Assembly (NCBI GenBank): GCA_017640725.1
Contig: JAEPQB010000003.1
Location: forward strand, 248,001-312,000
DNA: 64,000 bases
Reading direction: 5' to 3'
From: Kordiimonadaceae bacterium
GTDB taxonomy: Bacteria; Pseudomonadota; Alphaproteobacteria; Sphingomonadales; Kordiimonadaceae
Part shown: positions 2,984 through 57,947 of the stretch, one piece after another
How the letters are laid out: every line of letters begins with the position of its first letter
How positions within the stretch are numbered: the first letter of the stretch is position 1
Made by a program: the position numbers and the translations under genes
Notes under the pieces: model-generated
Told to the model about the DNA's origin: nothing
Databases searched by the model: none
What the model saw: the letters and a program-made list of their open reading frames with translations, nothing else

Positions 2984-4000
2984 ATGCCACAGATGAACAT
3001 GATTGAAGCCATCCGTGATGCGATGGACGTAAAAATGGCTGAAGACGACAATGTGGTCGTGTTTGGTGAAGACGTGGGTTATTTCGGCGGCGTATTCCGC
3101 TGTACTCACGGCTTGCAGGAAAAGTACGGCACGTCCCGTGTGTTCGACAGCCCGATCAACGAAAGCGGCATCGTCGGTACAGCGATTGGCATGGCGGCCT
3201 ACGGCCTGCGTCCATGTGTGGAAATCCAGTTCGCGGATTATATCTACCCCGCTTATGACCAAATCGTTTCTGAAGCCGCGCGCATGCGCTACCGCTCAAG
3301 CGCGGAGTTCACATCACCGCTGGTGATCCGCACCCCTTGTGGTGGTGGTATCTTTGGCGGTCAAACGCACAGCCAAAGCCCAGAGGCTTTGTTCACACAT
3401 ATTTCTGGTGTGAAAACGGTGATTGTGTCTAATCCGTATGACGCAAAAGGGATGCTGATCAGCGCGATTGAAGACAACGACCCTGTCATCTTCTTTGAAC
3501 CAAAACGCCTCTACAATGGCCCGTTCGACGGTCACCATGACCGTCCGGCTAAAAACTGGAATTCGCATCCAAAGGGCGACGTGCCAGAGGGCCACTATAC
3601 CGTGCCAATCGGCAAGGCAGATGTGGTGAGCGAGGGTTCTGACGTTACCATCCTCACATACGGCACCATGGTCTATGTGGCAGAAGCAGTGAAAGAAGAA
3701 ACCGGCGTTGACGCCGAGATCATTGATCTGCGCTCATTGCTGCCTCTTGATATCGACACAATCGAAGCGTCTGTTAAGAAAACTGGCCGTTGCATGGTAT
3801 TGCATGAAGCAACACTCACCAGCGGCTTTGGCGCCGAGCTGGCGGCACAGGTGCAGGAGCGCTGCTTCTATCACCTGGAAACGCCTGTTGAGCGTGTAAC
3901 CGGTTGGGACACACCGTACCCACATGCGCAGGAGTGGGATTATTTCCCTGGTCCGGCGCGCGTTGGTGCAGCGCTTAAAGCCATGATGGAGGCAGTCTAA
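2984..4000 (+). CDS. bkdA2: 2-oxoisovalerate dehydrogenase E1 component, beta subunit
   Basis: A 338-residue transketolase-like E1 beta subunit that pairs with the E1 alpha just upstream. Recognisable blocks are the N-terminal NMIEAIRDAMD and VVVFGEDVGYFGGVFRCTHGL, the cofactor-side Glu in FDSPINESGIVGTAIGMA, the ADYIYPAYDQI helix, and the C-terminal DLRSLLPLDIDTI. The CTHGL and PCGGGIFGG segments are those of the branched-chain rather than the pyruvate enzyme. The stop codon overlaps the start of the E2 gene (TAATG), which indicates translational coupling. The E1 heterotetramer docks on the peripheral-subunit-binding domain of E2 encoded next. Confidence 0.95.
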   Translation: MPQMNMIEAIRDAMDVKMAEDDNVVVFGEDVGYFGGVFRCTHGLQEKYGTSRVFDSPINESGIVGTAIGMAAYGLRPCVEIQFADYIYPAYDQIVSEAARMRYRSSAEFTSPLVIRTPCGGGIFGGQTHSQSPEALFTHISGVKTVIVSNPYDAKGMLISAIEDNDPVIFFEPKRLYNGPFDGHHDRPAKNWNSHPKGDVPEGHYTVPIGKADVVSEGSDVTILTYGTMVYVAEAVKEETGVDAEIIDLRSLLPLDIDTIEASVKKTGRCMVLHEATLTSGFGAELAAQVQERCFYHLETPVERVTGWDTPYPHAQEWDYFPGPARVGAALKAMMEAV

Positions 4001-5316
4001 TGGGTTTGCATAAAATTCAAATGCCAGACGTCGGTGAAGGTATCACCGAAGCTGAAGTTGTTGGCTGGAACGTCAAGGTTGGTGACGTGGTGCGCGAGGA
4101 TGACGTTCTTGCAGAAGTCATGACCGACAAAGCCACCGTTGAAATCCCGTCCCCTGTTGATGGAACTGTTCAGGCCATCACGGGCGAAGTCGGTGAAATG
4201 GTGGCGGTTGGTACCGTAATCATCAGCCTTGAAGTTGAGGGCGAGGGTAATGAAGCTGAGATTTCAGCCGAAGCCAGCGCGCCGGCACCCGCTCCAGAGC
4301 CTGCGCCGGCACCAGCCCCAGAACCTGAAGCAGCGCCAGCGCCAGCCCCCAAGGCTGCCGCTCCAAAAGCAGCCGCAGTTGTGCAAAAACCGACTGTTAC
4401 GGGCAAGGCGCCTGCTGCCTCCAGCCGACGCGCCGAGGGTGAAAAGCCAATCGCATCACCAGCCGTGCGCAAACGTGCCATGGAGGCAGGCGTTAAGCTT
4501 GCCTACGTTCAAGGCTCTGGCCCTGCGGGCCGCATTACCCACGATGATCTAGATGCTTATATGGCTGGCGCATCAGCGCCTGTTGGCGGTGGCATGGCGA
4601 GCCGTGCCCCAAACATGAGTGTTGAAGAAATCAAGGTGATTGGCCTGCGCCGCAAGATCGCAGAACGCATGCAGGATGCCAAAAGCCGCATTCCGCACAT
4701 CACCTATGTTGAAGAAGTGGATGTGACAGAGGTTGAAAGCTTGCGCGAACACCTGAACGCCAACCGCAAGGAAGGCCAGCACAAGCTGACGATCCTGCCT
4801 TTCATCATGAAGGCGATGGTTGTTGCACTGAGGGATTATCCAAAGCTCAGCTCGCATTATGATGATGGCAATGATCTTCTGTACCAATACGGCGCGGCCC
4901 ACATCGGCATGGCGGCGCAAACGCCAGGTGGCCTTATGGTGCCAGTGATCAAGCATGCTGAAACCCATGACATTTGGGGCTTGGCGGCGGAAAGCAAACG
5001 CCTTGCGGACGCGGCACGGGATGGGTCGATCACCCGTGACGAACTCACAGGTTCAACCATCACCATCTCAAGCCTTGGCAAGATGGGTGGCATTGTCTCT
5101 ACGCCGGTTATCAACAGCCCAGAAGTGGCTATTGTCGGCGTCAACAAAGTGATGACACAGCCTGTCTACAAAGATGGTGGATTTGTGCCGCGCAAGATCA
5201 TGAACCTGTCGTCTTCGTTCGACCATCGCATCGTTGATGGTTGGGACGCTGCCGAGTTTATCCAGCGCATCCGTGGGCTTCTTGAGAATCCCGCAACGCT
5301 CTTTATGGAGGGTTAA
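4000..5316 (+). CDS. bkdB: Lipoamide acyltransferase E2 of branched-chain 2-oxoacid dehydrogenase
   Basis: This is the core E2 subunit, which transfers the branched acyl group from lipoamide to CoA. One N-terminal lipoyl domain carries the lipoylated lysine K44 within DKATVEIPSP. A low-complexity alanine/proline linker (about residues 86-145) follows, made almost entirely of AP and EP repeats. Next comes a peripheral-subunit-binding domain (about 151-188, ASPAVRKRAMEAG to ITHDDLDAYM) and the catalytic acyltransferase domain ending with DHRIVDG at about 408-414, whose His and Asp are catalytic. The gene starts inside the stop of E1 beta and stops directly before the E3 ATG. A single lipoyl domain is usual for this class. 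Confidence 0.95.
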   Translation: MGLHKIQMPDVGEGITEAEVVGWNVKVGDVVREDDVLAEVMTDKATVEIPSPVDGTVQAITGEVGEMVAVGTVIISLEVEGEGNEAEISAEASAPAPAPEPAPAPAPEPEAAPAPAPKAAAPKAAAVVQKPTVTGKAPAASSRRAEGEKPIASPAVRKRAMEAGVKLAYVQGSGPAGRITHDDLDAYMAGASAPVGGGMASRAPNMSVEEIKVIGLRRKIAERMQDAKSRIPHITYVEEVDVTEVESLREHLNANRKEGQHKLTILPFIMKAMVVALRDYPKLSSHYDDGNDLLYQYGAAHIGMAAQTPGGLMVPVIKHAETHDIWGLAAESKRLADAARDGSITRDELTGSTITISSLGKMGGIVSTPVINSPEVAIVGVNKVMTQPVYKDGGFVPRKIMNLSSSFDHRIVDGWDAAEFIQRIRGLLENPATLFMEG

Positions 5317-52608: not shown

Positions 52609-52724
52609 ATGGACGAAGCCAGTAAACCGCACAATTTCCTTGAGAAATATGCCGCCTGCTTTACATAGTCGGCTTAAGAAAGCTGCCAGCTGGGCAGCCA
52701 GGATTTGAGTTTATGAGGCCAACT

Positions 52725-55388
52725 ATGTCTTCGAAGACAACCGGTTCAATGCACAGCACCAATGAGATACGCAAAACATTCCTAGATTTTTTTGCGGCGA
52801 ATGGTCATGAGGTTGTGCCATCAGCGCCTTTGGTACCCATCAATGATCCAACTTTGATGTTCACCAACGCGGGCATGGTGCCATTCAAGAATGTGTTCAC
52901 TGGCGCCGAAACTCGTGGCTATACGCAGGCGACTTCGTCTCAGAAATGTGTCCGTGCGGGTGGTAAGCATAATGACCTCGACAATGTTGGTTATACAGCG
53001 CGCCACCACACGTTTTTTGAGATGCTTGGTAACTTCTCATTCGGTGACTATTTCAAGGACCAGGCAATTGAAATGGCCTGGAGGCTGATCACCAAAGACT
53101 ATGGTATCGACGCTGATCGTCTGACCGTAACGGTTTACCACGACGATGACGCTGCATTTGACCTGTGGCGCAAGATTTCTGGTCTGCCGGAAGAGCGCAT
53201 CATCCGCATCGCAACCAGTGACAACTTCTGGTCGATGGGTGACGTAGGCCCCTGTGGTCCTTGCTCAGAGATTTTCTACGATCACGGTGATCACATCTGG
53301 GGCGGCCCTCCCGGTACGCCGGAAGAAGACGGCGACCGCTTCGTTGAGATCTGGAACCTTGTTTTCATGCAATATGAGCAACGAGGCCCTGGTGATCGCG
53401 TAGACCTGCCAAAACCCAGCATCGATACAGGCATGGGTCTGGAGCGGATCTCTGCACTTTTGCAAGGCACCCATGACAATTATGAAACAGATACCTTCAA
53501 GCGCCTGATTGGCAGTTCAATTGAAGCAACAGGCGCCGCAGAAACAGATATTACGCGCGCATCACACCGGGTTATCGCAGATCATCTACGCGCTTGTAGT
53601 TTTTTGATCGCTGATGGTGTTCTCCCGTCCAATGAGGGCAGGGGCTATGTTCTGCGCCGCATTATGCGCCGTGCCATGCGGCATGCGCATTTGCTCGGCG
53701 CAAAAGACCTGGTTATGCACCGCCTAACGCCGACATTGGTTGCGGAAATGGGCGCGGCATTTCCTGAGTTGGGACGGGCCGAAAAACTGATCGAAGAAAC
53801 GCTGAAACTTGAGGAATCCAAATTCCGTGCGATGCTTGAAAAAGGGCTTCGTCTCCTGGATGACGAGGTTGGCAAGCTTTCAGGCGATACCCTCGCAGGG
53901 GACGTGGCCTTCAAACTCTATGACACTTACGGCTTCCCGCTCGATCTTACTCAAGATGCGCTTCGGGCTCAGAACCTGAAAGTGGATGTTGATGGGTTCA
54001 ACAGCTCCATGGAAGAGCAACGCGCCAAAGCGCGCGCCGCCTGGTCTGGCTCAGGCGATGCAGCAACAGAAACCGTATGGTTTGACCTGCACGACAAAGA
54101 GGGCGCGACCGAGTTTGTTGGATATACGTCAGAGCAAGCTGAAGGCCAAGTTGTAGCACTGGTGAAGGACGGTGAACTCGTTGAAGAAGTAAACGCTGGT
54201 GACGATGTTTTGCTGGTGACTAACCAAACCCCATTTTATGGCGAGTCTGGTGGTCAGATGGGTGACACCGGCACGCTGGTGGCGGATGGCACGCTTGTTT
54301 CTGTTTCTGACACGCTCAAAAAAGTAGGCGCGATGCATGTGCATGTTGCTTCTGTTGATCAGGGGTCAGTTTCCGTCGGTATGGCGCTCGACATGAAAAT
54401 TGATGGCGTTCGTCGCCGTCAGTTGAAAGCCAACCACTCTGCGACTCATCTGTTGCATGAAGTGCTGCGCCGCGAACTTGGTGAGCATGTCACACAGAAG
54501 GGCTCCCTTGTGGCGCCCGATCGCTTGCGTTTTGATATCTCGCACCCCAAAGCGATTGAGGCTGACGAACTGGCGCGCATCGAAGTGGCTGTCAATGATC
54601 TTGTGCGTGAAAACACGGACGTGACAACACGCTTGCTTAGCTACGACGACGCGATTGAAGCTGGTGCTATGGCACTGTTTGGAGAGAAGTACGGTGACGA
54701 AGTACGCGTAATTTCCATGGGCGACGGCGACGCACAACGCTCAGACTTCTCTGTTGAGCTTTGTGGTGGCACTCACGTTGATCGGCTTGGTGACATCGGC
54801 CTGTTCACGATCACATCTGAAAGTGCAGTTTCCTCTGGTGTTCGCAGAATTGAAGCGCTTACCGGGGCGGCCGCTCATGCACATTTGGTGCACCAGCAGG
54901 CGCTTTTGAAGCAGGCCGCTGCAACCATCAAGGCCAGCCCCGATGACCTGGTTGACCGTGTCGCAGCCCTCCAGGCTGAGCGCAAAACCCTTGAAAAAGA
55001 ACTAGCTGAAGCCCGGAAGCAAGCCGCGATGGGTGGCGGAAGCTCTGGCCCCGAAGCAAAGTTCGTGAATGGAACGTCATTCCTTGGGCAGGTGCTGAAC
55101 GGCGTCAGCCCCAAGGACCTGCGGGGTCTTGCTGACGAAGCCAAGTCCAAACTGGGCAGCGGCGTGGTGACACTGGTGGCGGTCAATGATGGCAAAGCCG
55201 CTGTTCTGGTTGGCGTGACAGACGATCTGATAGGAACGTTTAGTGCCGTCGACCTGGTGCGTGCTGCATCAGCAGCCGTTGGCGGAAAAGGCGGAGGCGG
55301 GCGCCCAGATATGGCACAGGCTGGCGGGCCGGACGGTGCACAAGCCCAAGCTGCGCTTGACGCGGTTGAGGCGGTTTTGGCAGGCTAG
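52725..55388 (+). CDS. alaS: Alanyl-tRNA synthetase
   Basis: A class II aminoacyl-tRNA synthetase, about 887 residues. The catalytic part runs from [26 protein letters not shown] through [15 protein letters not shown] and [20 protein letters not shown]. The editing domain carries [11 protein letters not shown] (Zn His pair) and [13 protein letters not shown]. The C-terminal C-Ala region ends with the glycine-rich [16 protein letters not shown]. The ATG at 52725 has GAGG 7 nt upstream; ATGs at 52713 and 52749 are alternatives. The recA-alaS neighbourhood is common in alphaproteobacteria. Confidence 0.96.
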
Positions 55389-55472
55389 GCTAATGCCTAG
55401 TCTGAGGAGGACCTGATTAAACGCAGCGATGACAATCGTACTTTAATTCGGCGAACATCTGACTTTTTTGAG

Positions 55473-56654
55473 TTGGGCCGTTTCGCTGGGCGATATGCGG
55501 CTGCGTTTGAATACTTCATGATTGTATTGATCTTGGCCAACGTTGCTGCGGTGGCCCTTGAAACCGTTCCTGGCCTTTGGGCGCGGTACAGTCATGTTTT
55601 CTTCATCTTTGACATGGTTTCTGTAGCTATTTTCACCGCTGAGTATCTCTTGCGAGTTTGGTCAAGCGCGGAGTATGTCGGCGCGCAGGGACGTACTAAC
55701 TTCGAAAAGAGATGTCGCTATATTGTGTCGCCCCTCGCAGTCGTTGATTTGCTTGCGATATTACCATTCTATCTAGGCGCTTTCATAAACTTGGACTTAA
55801 GAGCACTCCGGATATTCCGGCTGTTGCGCCTTTTCAAACTGGTGCGTTATTCCCCGGCAATTACGTCACTATCGCGCGTTTTTGTGCGAGAGAGGCATGC
55901 CCTGTTCGCGGCCTTTTTGATCATGATTGGCATTTTGTTTGTGACTGCGACGCTGGCTCACTTAATTGAAGGCAAAGCACAACCAGCAGCCTTTGGTACC
56001 ATACCGGACGCCTTGTGGTGGTCGCTCACCACGCTCACCACGGTCGGGTATGGTGACGTGGTGCCGATAACTGATTTGGGGCGCATACTCGGCGCGTTTG
56101 TCATGTTGGTGGGTTTTGCCTTTTATGCGGTTCCCATTGGCATTATTGCGTCCGGCTTTGCTGATGAAGTGCATCAACGCGCATTTGTGGTCCCAGTGAG
56201 GCTCATTGAAAATGTGCCGATATTTCAAGGGCTTGACCCAAGTGTCGCTAAAGAAATTGCCAACCATTTGCGCACATTGAATGTGCCTCCGGGTACGGTT
56301 GTCACGCATAAGATGGACGTCAACAATGGGCTTTATTGCATAGTTTCTGGTGACGTTGTCGCCTTTCACCATCATCGACCGATTGAACTACAGGGCGGAG
56401 ACTTCTTCGGTGAACTTGGCATTGTATCAGAGGATGGGGACCAGCCGTCAACTATTACAAGAAGTTGGGTGCGTCTGATGAAACTTGACAGCGTTGATCT
56501 GCATACGTTGCTATCGGTGTTTCCTGAGATGTCATCAAGCGTACTGGAGTATGCCAACAAACGGCTGGCTGACTTCGTTGAAAGTGGCTGTCTGGATGCA
56601 GAAGAACGATCAGTAATTCTGGAACAACTCCGGAGCAAAATTGATCGGGGCTAG
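55473..56654 (+). CDS. Voltage-gated potassium-channel-like protein with C-terminal cyclic-nucleotide-binding domain
   Basis: A six-helix ion channel (393 residues from this start). S1-S4 run from FEYFMIVLILANVAAVALE to the arginine-bearing LRALRIFRLLRLFKLVRYS. The selectivity filter TTVGYGDV is near residue 188, and S6 is AFVMLVGFAFYAVPIGIIASGF. A C-terminal cNMP-binding-like domain follows (FQGLDPSVAKEIANHLRTLNVPPGTVV, GLYCIVSGDVV, GGDFFGELGIVSEDG). The overall plan resembles MlotiK1-type channels. The start is doubtful: TTG at 55473 has no ribosome-binding site, whereas a strong GAGGAGG at 55404-55410 faces only in-frame CTG (55413) or ATT (55416), which would add about 19 residues. Confidence 0.85.
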   Translation: MGRFAGRYAAAFEYFMIVLILANVAAVALETVPGLWARYSHVFFIFDMVSVAIFTAEYLLRVWSSAEYVGAQGRTNFEKRCRYIVSPLAVVDLLAILPFYLGAFINLDLRALRIFRLLRLFKLVRYSPAITSLSRVFVRERHALFAAFLIMIGILFVTATLAHLIEGKAQPAAFGTIPDALWWSLTTLTTVGYGDVVPITDLGRILGAFVMLVGFAFYAVPIGIIASGFADEVHQRAFVVPVRLIENVPIFQGLDPSVAKEIANHLRTLNVPPGTVVTHKMDVNNGLYCIVSGDVVAFHHHRPIELQGGDFFGELGIVSEDGDQPSTITRSWVRLMKLDSVDLHTLLSVFPEMSSSVLEYANKRLADFVESGCLDAEERSVILEQLRSKIDRG

Positions 56655-56678: not shown

Positions 56679-56711
56679 AAAAAAAGCCGCCCAAACTTGA
56701 GCGGCTTTTTC
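56679..56711. terminator. Bidirectional terminator between channel gene and icd
   Basis: Stem AAGCCGC/GCGGCTT with a 10-nt loop, with A-run on the left and T-run on the right. It serves both the channel gene and the convergent icd. Confidence 0.92.
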
Positions 56712-56732: not shown

Positions 56733-57947
56733 TTAAGCCATGCGCTCTTTCAAGTTAGAGTCGATCTTGTCAAAGAACTGGCCAGTCGTCATCCAGCTTT
56801 GGTTCGGGCCAATCAGCAGCGCCAAGTCTTTGGTCATGGAACCTTGCTCTACAGTCTCGATACAAGTCTGTTCGATCAGTTCCGCAAATTTGGTCACTTC
56901 AGGCGTGCCGTCCATCATGCCGCGATACTTCAGGCCGCGCGTCCAGGCGAAGATCGAAGCGATAGGGTTGGTTGACGTTTCTTTGCCTTCCTGGTGCTGA
57001 CGATAGTGACGTGTCACCGTGCCATGCGCCGCTTCCGCTTCAACGGTTTTCCCGTCTGGGGTCATCAGAACAGAAGTCATCAGGCCGAGTGAGCCAAAGC
57101 CTTGTGCCACAGTGTCAGACTGTACGTCACCGTCATAGTTCTTACATGCCCAAACAAAGCCACCAGCCCACTTGAGGGCACAGGCAACCATGTCATCAAT
57201 CAGGCGGTGTTCGTAGGTGATGCCGGCATCTTTGAACTTGTCGGCAAATTCATTTTCGAACACTTCTTCGAACAGGTCTTTGAAGCGGCCGTCATAGGCT
57301 TTCATAATGGTGTTCTTGGTAGACAGATAAACTGGCCACTTGCGGTCCAAGCCATAGTTCATGCAGGCACGACCAAAGTCACGGATGCTTTCATCCAGGT
57401 TGTACATGCCCATGGCGACACCAGAGTCTGCAAATTCATAAACTTCACGCTCGATAGCTTCGCCACCATCTGCAGGTTCGAATTTCATGGTGAGCTTGCC
57501 AGCACCGGGTACCAAAAAGTCTGTGGCACGATACTGGTCCCCAAATGCGTGGCGGCCAATCACGATTGGCTTGGTCCAGCCCGGAACCAGACGTGGAACA
57601 TTTTTGATGATGATTGGCTCACGGAATACGGTACCGCCCAAAATGTTGCGGATGGTGCCGTTCGGGCTGCGCCACATTTTCTTGAGGTCAAACTCTTCAA
57701 CGCGCTGTTCATCGGGTGTGATGGTCGCACACTTAACACCAACGCCGTGTTCTTTGATGGCGTTCGCAGCATCAACAGTGATCTGGTCGTCAGTTTCATC
57801 ACGTTTCTGAACGGACAGATCATAATACAGTAGATCCACATCCATATAAGGCTGGACCAAGCGCTCGCGGATCCATTGCCAAATGATGCGGGTCATTTCG
57901 TCGCCGTCAATTTCGACAATCGGGTTTTTGACTAGGATTTTACTCAT
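56733..57947 (-). CDS. icd: NADP-dependent isocitrate dehydrogenase
   Basis: TCA-cycle enzyme producing 2-oxoglutarate and NADPH (404 residues). [53 protein letters not shown] and the coenzyme-binding [33 protein letters not shown] mark the eukaryote-like, homodimeric class II enzyme of alphaproteobacteria, not the E. coli class I type. It is monocistronic, with the terminator shared with the channel gene. Confidence 0.96.

Follow-up and report, generated by a model that had tools for sequence, protein, structure and literature searches.

In this study we asked where translation begins in a potassium channel gene that lies directly behind alaS in the window, by which we mean the whole stretch of 64,000 nucleotides analysed here, and why an unusual start codon should be kept there. 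The preliminary description of this DNA had reported a strong Shine-Dalgarno (SD) sequence that no standard start codon follows. Re-reading the leader on the + strand, we find GAGGAGG at 55404-55410, CTG at 55413-55415, ATT at 55416-55418 and TTG at 55473-55475. The channel frame is open from its upstream in-frame stop, TAG 55398, to the stop codon at 56652-56654, and it holds no ATG, GTG or TTG between TAG 55398 and TTG 55473, which bears out both the coordinates and the absence. The SD duplex energy is -11.5 kcal/mol for ATT 55416 versus -0.8 kcal/mol for TTG 55473. The features concerned are as follows.

52713-55388, + strand: alaS (alanyl-tRNA synthetase), the open reading frame directly upstream, named from its translation; 27 nt from its stop codon to the ATT
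55404-55410, + strand: Shine-Dalgarno sequence GAGGAGG (core AGGAGG, 55405-55410), 5 nt ahead of the ATT; duplex energy -11.5 kcal/mol
55416-55418, + strand: proposed start codon ATT; five of six clade members have ATT and one has ATC followed by ATA, with an SD before each
55416-56654, + strand: coding sequence of the channel, 412 codons and a stop codon; Pfam Ion_trans and a degenerate cNMP_binding domain
55419-55442, + strand: codons 2-9, not conserved between species; pS 0.76 and pN 0.64 in a gap-free alignment of six species
55443-55472, + strand: conserved N-terminal segment LIRRTSDFFE, which in all six species precedes the first canonical codon; belongs to a predicted pre-S1 helix
55473-55475, + strand: TTG, the first standard start codon in the frame; not accepted as the start; no SD; CTN in the other five clade members

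From the comparison with related species we conclude that the channel is very probably translated from ATT 55416 and not from TTG 55473, as had been proposed before and as six species now support.

A near-cognate start shared by six species

The genomes searched were 59 (the window's own included), 29 of its own family and 396 drawn from its order, in overlapping sets. The order search gave 42 orthologue rows from 41 genomes, one genome (G108) contributing two rows and another (G087) a fragment; left out of the rows were low-scoring f5 matches, G054, G024, two further matches in G092 (its second and third), and G069 and G081, which are fragmented. A search of genome contigs gave 37 channel loci, several of them on the same contigs as order rows. 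These loci reach at most 51% identity over a long match and are therefore too distant to add members to the clade described here; judged by eye, an ATG stands close to the corresponding position at 27 of the 37, the others being GTG, TTG, cut or unclear. The sampling takes one genome per species and covers part of the species. In a maximum-likelihood tree of the 42 rows, into which G009 was entered by the part after its frameshift, six species of the same genus (G000, which is the window, G005, G018, G015, G009 and G014) form one clade with support of 100/95. Its sister, G017, starts with ATG and has hardly any SD (-0.5 kcal/mol).

From the upstream in-frame stop as far as the conserved motif SDFFELGRF, none of the six clade members has an ATG, GTG or TTG in frame. 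Five of them (G000, G018, G015, G009 and G014) have ATT at the place of the start, while G005 has ATC-ATA, and an SD precedes each, with energies of -11.5 (G000), -9.4 (G018), -6.6 (G015), -14.6 (G009), -7.2 (G014) and -10.8 kcal/mol (G005). The position is also similar: counted back from SDFFELGRF, the start is 14 codons away in four species and 15 in G015, and G014 has ATT at both 15 and 16. The first in-frame canonical codon comes later: four species have an ATG 20 residues into the SDFFELGRF motif, G014 has a TTG at 15 residues, and in the window it is TTG 55473. In every species but the window it falls inside the predicted helix S1, which spans residues 26-49 in the window model. Five other species have ATT or ATC at the corresponding position, and this rules out, in practice, a sequencing error at 55416, which had been named as a finding that would undo the claim. 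Because six related species share such a start, the near-cognate AUU/AUC start with its compensating SD looks like a real feature that has been kept in the clade.

The median SD energy is -10.1 kcal/mol in the six clade genes versus -5.05 in 34 canonical orthologue rows (Mann-Whitney p = 0.0015), a comparison among related rows, two of them from one genome, which favours the canonical rows because each was scored by the best SD among its candidates. The SD is strong in four of the six species and only moderate in G015 and G014. The stronger SDs of the clade are as expected if they compensate for a weak codon.

How easily might such a leader arise by chance? We shuffled the leaders with stops and canonical starts forbidden, and scored ATT, ATC or ATA together with an SD of -6.5 kcal/mol or lower. 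For the window gene alone P was 0.085, a value at which chance could account for a single gene. The product over the six species was 3.8e-6, and ATT in at least five of six gave 1.2e-6; both values treat related species as independent and are approximate, even though silent sites are saturated. Within the genome, AGGAGG-N4-6-ATT occurs at 28 sites, versus 19 for the pattern read backwards, while the control with TTA replacing ATT occurs at 12 sites and, read backwards, at 40, so there is no clear genome-wide excess of SD-ATT sites. The channel is the only one of the 28 with more than 150 open codons from the ATT and no upstream in-frame canonical codon, in a screen confined to AGGAGG-N4-6-ATT.

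Two observations from outside the clade can be added. The orthologue in G019 (L129, locus ~3980-4010; same family, other genus) is without ATG, GTG or TTG before the conserved N-terminus and has a CTG after AAGGGGA. That in G036 (L128, another family) has an ATT after AAGGA near the ATG of its homologues, with a TTG nine codons before it and another four after. Both are candidates only for further lineages with a non-canonical start.

Selection on the N-terminal segment

If translation begins at the ATT, the codons ahead of TTG 55473 should evolve as protein, and the preliminary description had suggested looking for conservation over 55416-55472. The expectation holds from 55443 onwards and fails for codons 2-9, where pN is 0.64. 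Among the six species the ten codons 55443-55472 have a pS of 0.85 and a pN of 0.12, and the pattern is lost in the shifted frames (pS 0.16-0.20, pN 0.31-0.34). Extended to 55443-55517, the values are much the same (pS 0.85, pN 0.14). As the comparison shows at the level of sequence, a protein under purifying selection begins ahead of every canonical codon, and the feature that the species share there is ATT or ATC behind an SD. Since codons 2-9 are not conserved as protein, the exact start rests on the SD and on the recurrence of ATT/ATC.

An AlphaFold model of the channel (38 rows; mean pLDDT 83.4), with residues counted from the ATT, predicts a helix at 10-23 (pLDDT ~70-75) followed by a helix at 26-49 (S1); residues 1-6 are below 50. 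In this model a start at TTG 55473, which is residue 20, would keep just four residues of helix 10-23.

Other possible start sites

The best placed of the alternative sites is TTG 55473 itself, the first standard codon in frame; on this reading the counterpart in the relatives would be a canonical codon in helix S1, and the homology upstream would be untranslated. Homologues with ATG at or after this position had been named as evidence that would count against the ATT, and 18 of the 42 rows (loci L108-L126) do have ATG in the alignment column of 55473, all of them outside the clade and only one (G006) in the genus. However, 17 of these 18 also have an upstream canonical codon near the matching start, with G036, the eighteenth, ambiguous, and the clade has no ATG there in any of its six members; the codon in the other five is CTC, CTA, CTT, CTC and CTT. 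In three rows (G108, G108b and G106) the upstream GTG has a weaker SD than this internal ATG, and a shorter second product is therefore possible in other families. TTG 55473 has no SD of its own, and a start there would lose most of the pre-S1 helix and, in the relatives, part of S1. It would also leave the protein-like evolution of the ten codons ahead of it unaccounted for, and these codons have counterparts in orthologues whose ATG start lies upstream of that column; in the five ATG-starting orthologues of the same genus the ATG precedes the conserved Leu of LxRR by 2-5 codons. We regard a start at TTG 55473 as very unlikely.

CTG 55413, which the preliminary description had allowed as a second possible start, is in frame, near-cognate and 2 nt from GAGGAGG, but its short spacing gives a best SD of -7.4 versus -11.5 kcal/mol for the ATT, and the codon is GAT, AAC, GAT, GGT and CAA in the other five clade members; it is hardly conceivable as the start, and because it is not conserved only the ATT survives of the two.

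Equally hard to credit is entry into the channel frame from elsewhere, by a frameshift from an out-of-frame reading frame or by read-through of the alaS stop. The ATG at 55393 opens seven codons with a tandem AGG AGG and a TGA end that overlaps the A of the ATT, and an upstream out-of-frame ATG is also found in G015 and G014, but the positions differ between species, and G005, G018 and G009 have only TTG or GTG within 45 nt. As for read-through, the distance from the alaS stop to the start is 27, 33, 36, 33 and 33 nt in five clade members, which places the start in the alaS frame in five of six. In G005 it is 32 nt and the frame is different, and further in-frame stops stand between alaS and the start in G000, G015, G009 and G014; a single read-through event would thus work only in G018.

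One further element had been suggested as a control on the channel:

55429-55446, + strand: out-of-frame five-codon ATG frame; position not conserved

Out-of-frame ATGs occur at +13, +16 and +19 in three of the six species, where they end at a shared stop, and are absent in the other three, which leaves this element unsupported. Set against the relatives, then, TTG 55473, CTG 55413, the frameshift from ATG 55393, alaS read-through and the five-codon ATG element are all rejected or unsupported.

The channel and its product

By its sequence the product is a six-transmembrane potassium channel with a degenerate cNMP-binding domain. Pfam finds Ion_trans (PF00520, 1.2e-37) and Ion_trans_2 (PF07885, 7.3e-15), and the translation carries the selectivity-filter motif TTVGYGD, so that an Ion_trans fold and TVGYGD occur together. 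Among solved structures the closest in sequence is MlotiK1 (mll3241; PDB 2zd9, 3beh; E 3.3e-42), a cyclic-nucleotide-gated K+ channel which likewise has a C-terminal cNMP-binding fold and a GYGD filter. Unlike MlotiK1, the channel has a cNMP-binding domain that scores just under the Pfam cut-off (cNMP_binding, PF00027, 27.4 versus 27.5 bits). The residue aligned with the R of MlotiK1 FGEMALISGEPRSAT, which we take to be the phosphate-binding residue (the cassette arginine), is D, H, R and E in the four intact clade members. It is doubtful that the channel binds a cyclic nucleotide, because the domain scores below the cut-off and the cassette arginine is not conserved. The f8 rows shown in the alignment have FGA where MlotiK1 has FGE, and FGV in one.

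Known near-cognate starts

In the literature consulted on this topic, conserved near-cognate starts are named for only a handful of bacterial genes. It gives infC and pcnB as the two AUU genes of E. coli (PMC9410913), and in pcnB the AUU start limits expression (Binns and Masters 2002, as cited in PMC13009471 and PMC9410913). Staphylococcus aureus cvfC1 (AUU), ccpN (AUA) and infC (AUA) are described as having extended SDs, and near-cognate starts in this species as giving about 10% of the AUG output in poor medium (PMC13009471). Listeria monocytogenes is reported to have infC with ATT and rnhC with ATC, and a reporter ranking of ATG > ATA > ATT (PMC13068326). In Salmonella Typhimurium the new N-terminal proteoforms described include one AUU among six near-cognate starts (PMC11005335), and excess IF3 is described as inhibiting non-canonical starts (PMC2268962). 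For channels that start at AUU our literature search found no bacterial case, only a rat channel in a reference list, and a search on Kordiimonas start codons found nothing related.

The best reading by sequence criteria is that the channel is a further member of the infC/pcnB class, with a near-cognate AUU/AUC/AUA start, and it would add an ion channel to the genes named. It resembles E. coli pcnB as an AUU-start gene other than infC, with limited expression that is shown for pcnB in the sources consulted and suggested for the channel; in contrast to pcnB, it is a channel gene, in an alphaproteobacterium and behind alaS. With infC it shares a conserved near-cognate start behind an SD, and infC is IF3-sensitive where tested, as far as the sources describe it. 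The channel does not encode IF3, however, and so there would be no closed feedback loop. The S. aureus genes cvfC1 and ccpN share the design, a clade-conserved near-cognate start with an unusually strong SD, but theirs is described as shown by Ribo-Ret and reporters (PMC13009471) whereas ours comes from comparison, in another phylum and another gene.

The family of the window appears to have an unusual start in infC as well. We searched 29 of its genomes for infC with TIGR00168; the gene is cut in one, and in the other 28, all readable, an in-frame ATA follows an SD that contains GGAGA. At these loci (L079-L106, L089 among them) the ATA is followed by CGT, or by GGT in two. That ATA is the infC start in this family is suggested by analogy, because three genomes (G001, G011 and G023) have an in-frame ATG two codons before the ATA and some have canonical codons further off.

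Why the start is kept

In the mechanism that we propose, AUU 55416 would be read by the initiator tRNA as formyl-methionine, the near-consensus AGGAGG bringing the 30S subunit to the weak start codon. The AUU/AUC codon would lower initiation to a fraction of the AUG level, and low initiation would keep the membrane channel scarce despite its distance of 27-36 nt behind a presumably well expressed alaS. IF3 is the factor that rejects non-canonical P-site pairing, and the AUU/AUC start could also make channel synthesis respond to it. Throttling of channel synthesis is, in our judgement, probably the kept function of the start. A real IF3 response is possible, and we put it forward more tentatively.

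The main rival for why the start is kept is gene decay, which concerns the reason for the codon and not the place where translation starts: the ATT would be used, but as a degraded start that is tolerated as a step in decay and has no regulatory role. The channel copies of two of the six clade members are frameshifted in their draft assemblies, in G009 about 60 codons in, at six consecutive T (L009/L133), and in G014 in the cNMP-binding domain near codon 325 (L012/L132), and 8 of the 19 genomes of the genus lack a close orthologue (two of the eight are just 76% complete). The gene is thus dispensable. The branch leading to the window copy is also long (0.51 versus 0.2 for G005), and this copy evolves fast. 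Against decay, the whole gene has a pS of 0.74-0.81, which is saturated, versus a pN of only 0.19-0.26 among the four intact clade members, the start class is kept in six lineages with SDs stronger than usual, and the break in G009, lying in a T run, may be an assembly error. We consider decay an unlikely explanation, and throttling remains our preferred reading.

The case shows a weak codon kept alongside its SD. It also has a practical side, as a gene finder limited to ATG, GTG and TTG would misannotate the channel, either cutting off a conserved helix or placing the start inside the first membrane helix. An AUA infC and an AUU channel in one genome would form a pair for asking whether IF3 controls anything besides itself. 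A bolder suggestion, which we think improbable as a whole, is that the level of IF3, from its AUA-started infC, sets the channel dose through the AUU start, that there is a small IF3 regulon beyond infC, and that G019 and G036 are independent gains of the same throttle. If this were true, membrane potassium conductance would follow the state of translation initiation, for example when IF3 falls relative to ribosomes.

Genomic setting and leader RNA

Genes that we name recA-like and alaS-like from reading their translations stand in a row with the channel on the + strand. The pairing of the tRNA synthetase gene alaS with an ion channel is kept in 41 of the 42 orthologue rows of the order, with the alaS stop 7-186 nt before the aligned region; the exception, row G106, lies near a contig end. 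A consensus scan, which carries little weight, found no promoter in the interval between alaS and the channel and one promoter-like site, inside the gene. Two predicted hairpins flank the channel:

55381-55404, + strand: hairpin of 10 bp that spans the alaS stop codon and ends at the SD; -34.9 kcal/mol for the 90-nt fold (z -3.9)
56681-56710, strand not assigned: hairpin with A and T flanks, 3' of the channel gene; -15.1 kcal/mol, z -4.05

We looked for a conserved structure in the leader RNA, and the other five clade members have no significant fold (z -0.4 to +1.1). The fold of G018 also has a stem over its alaS stop, despite its non-significant z. The leader hairpin may couple channel translation to alaS in the window species only. 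A terminator pattern scan reported none, the hairpin at 56681-56710 included. With its A and T flanks, this hairpin is probably a two-way terminator shared with the converging minus-strand gene at 56733-57947.
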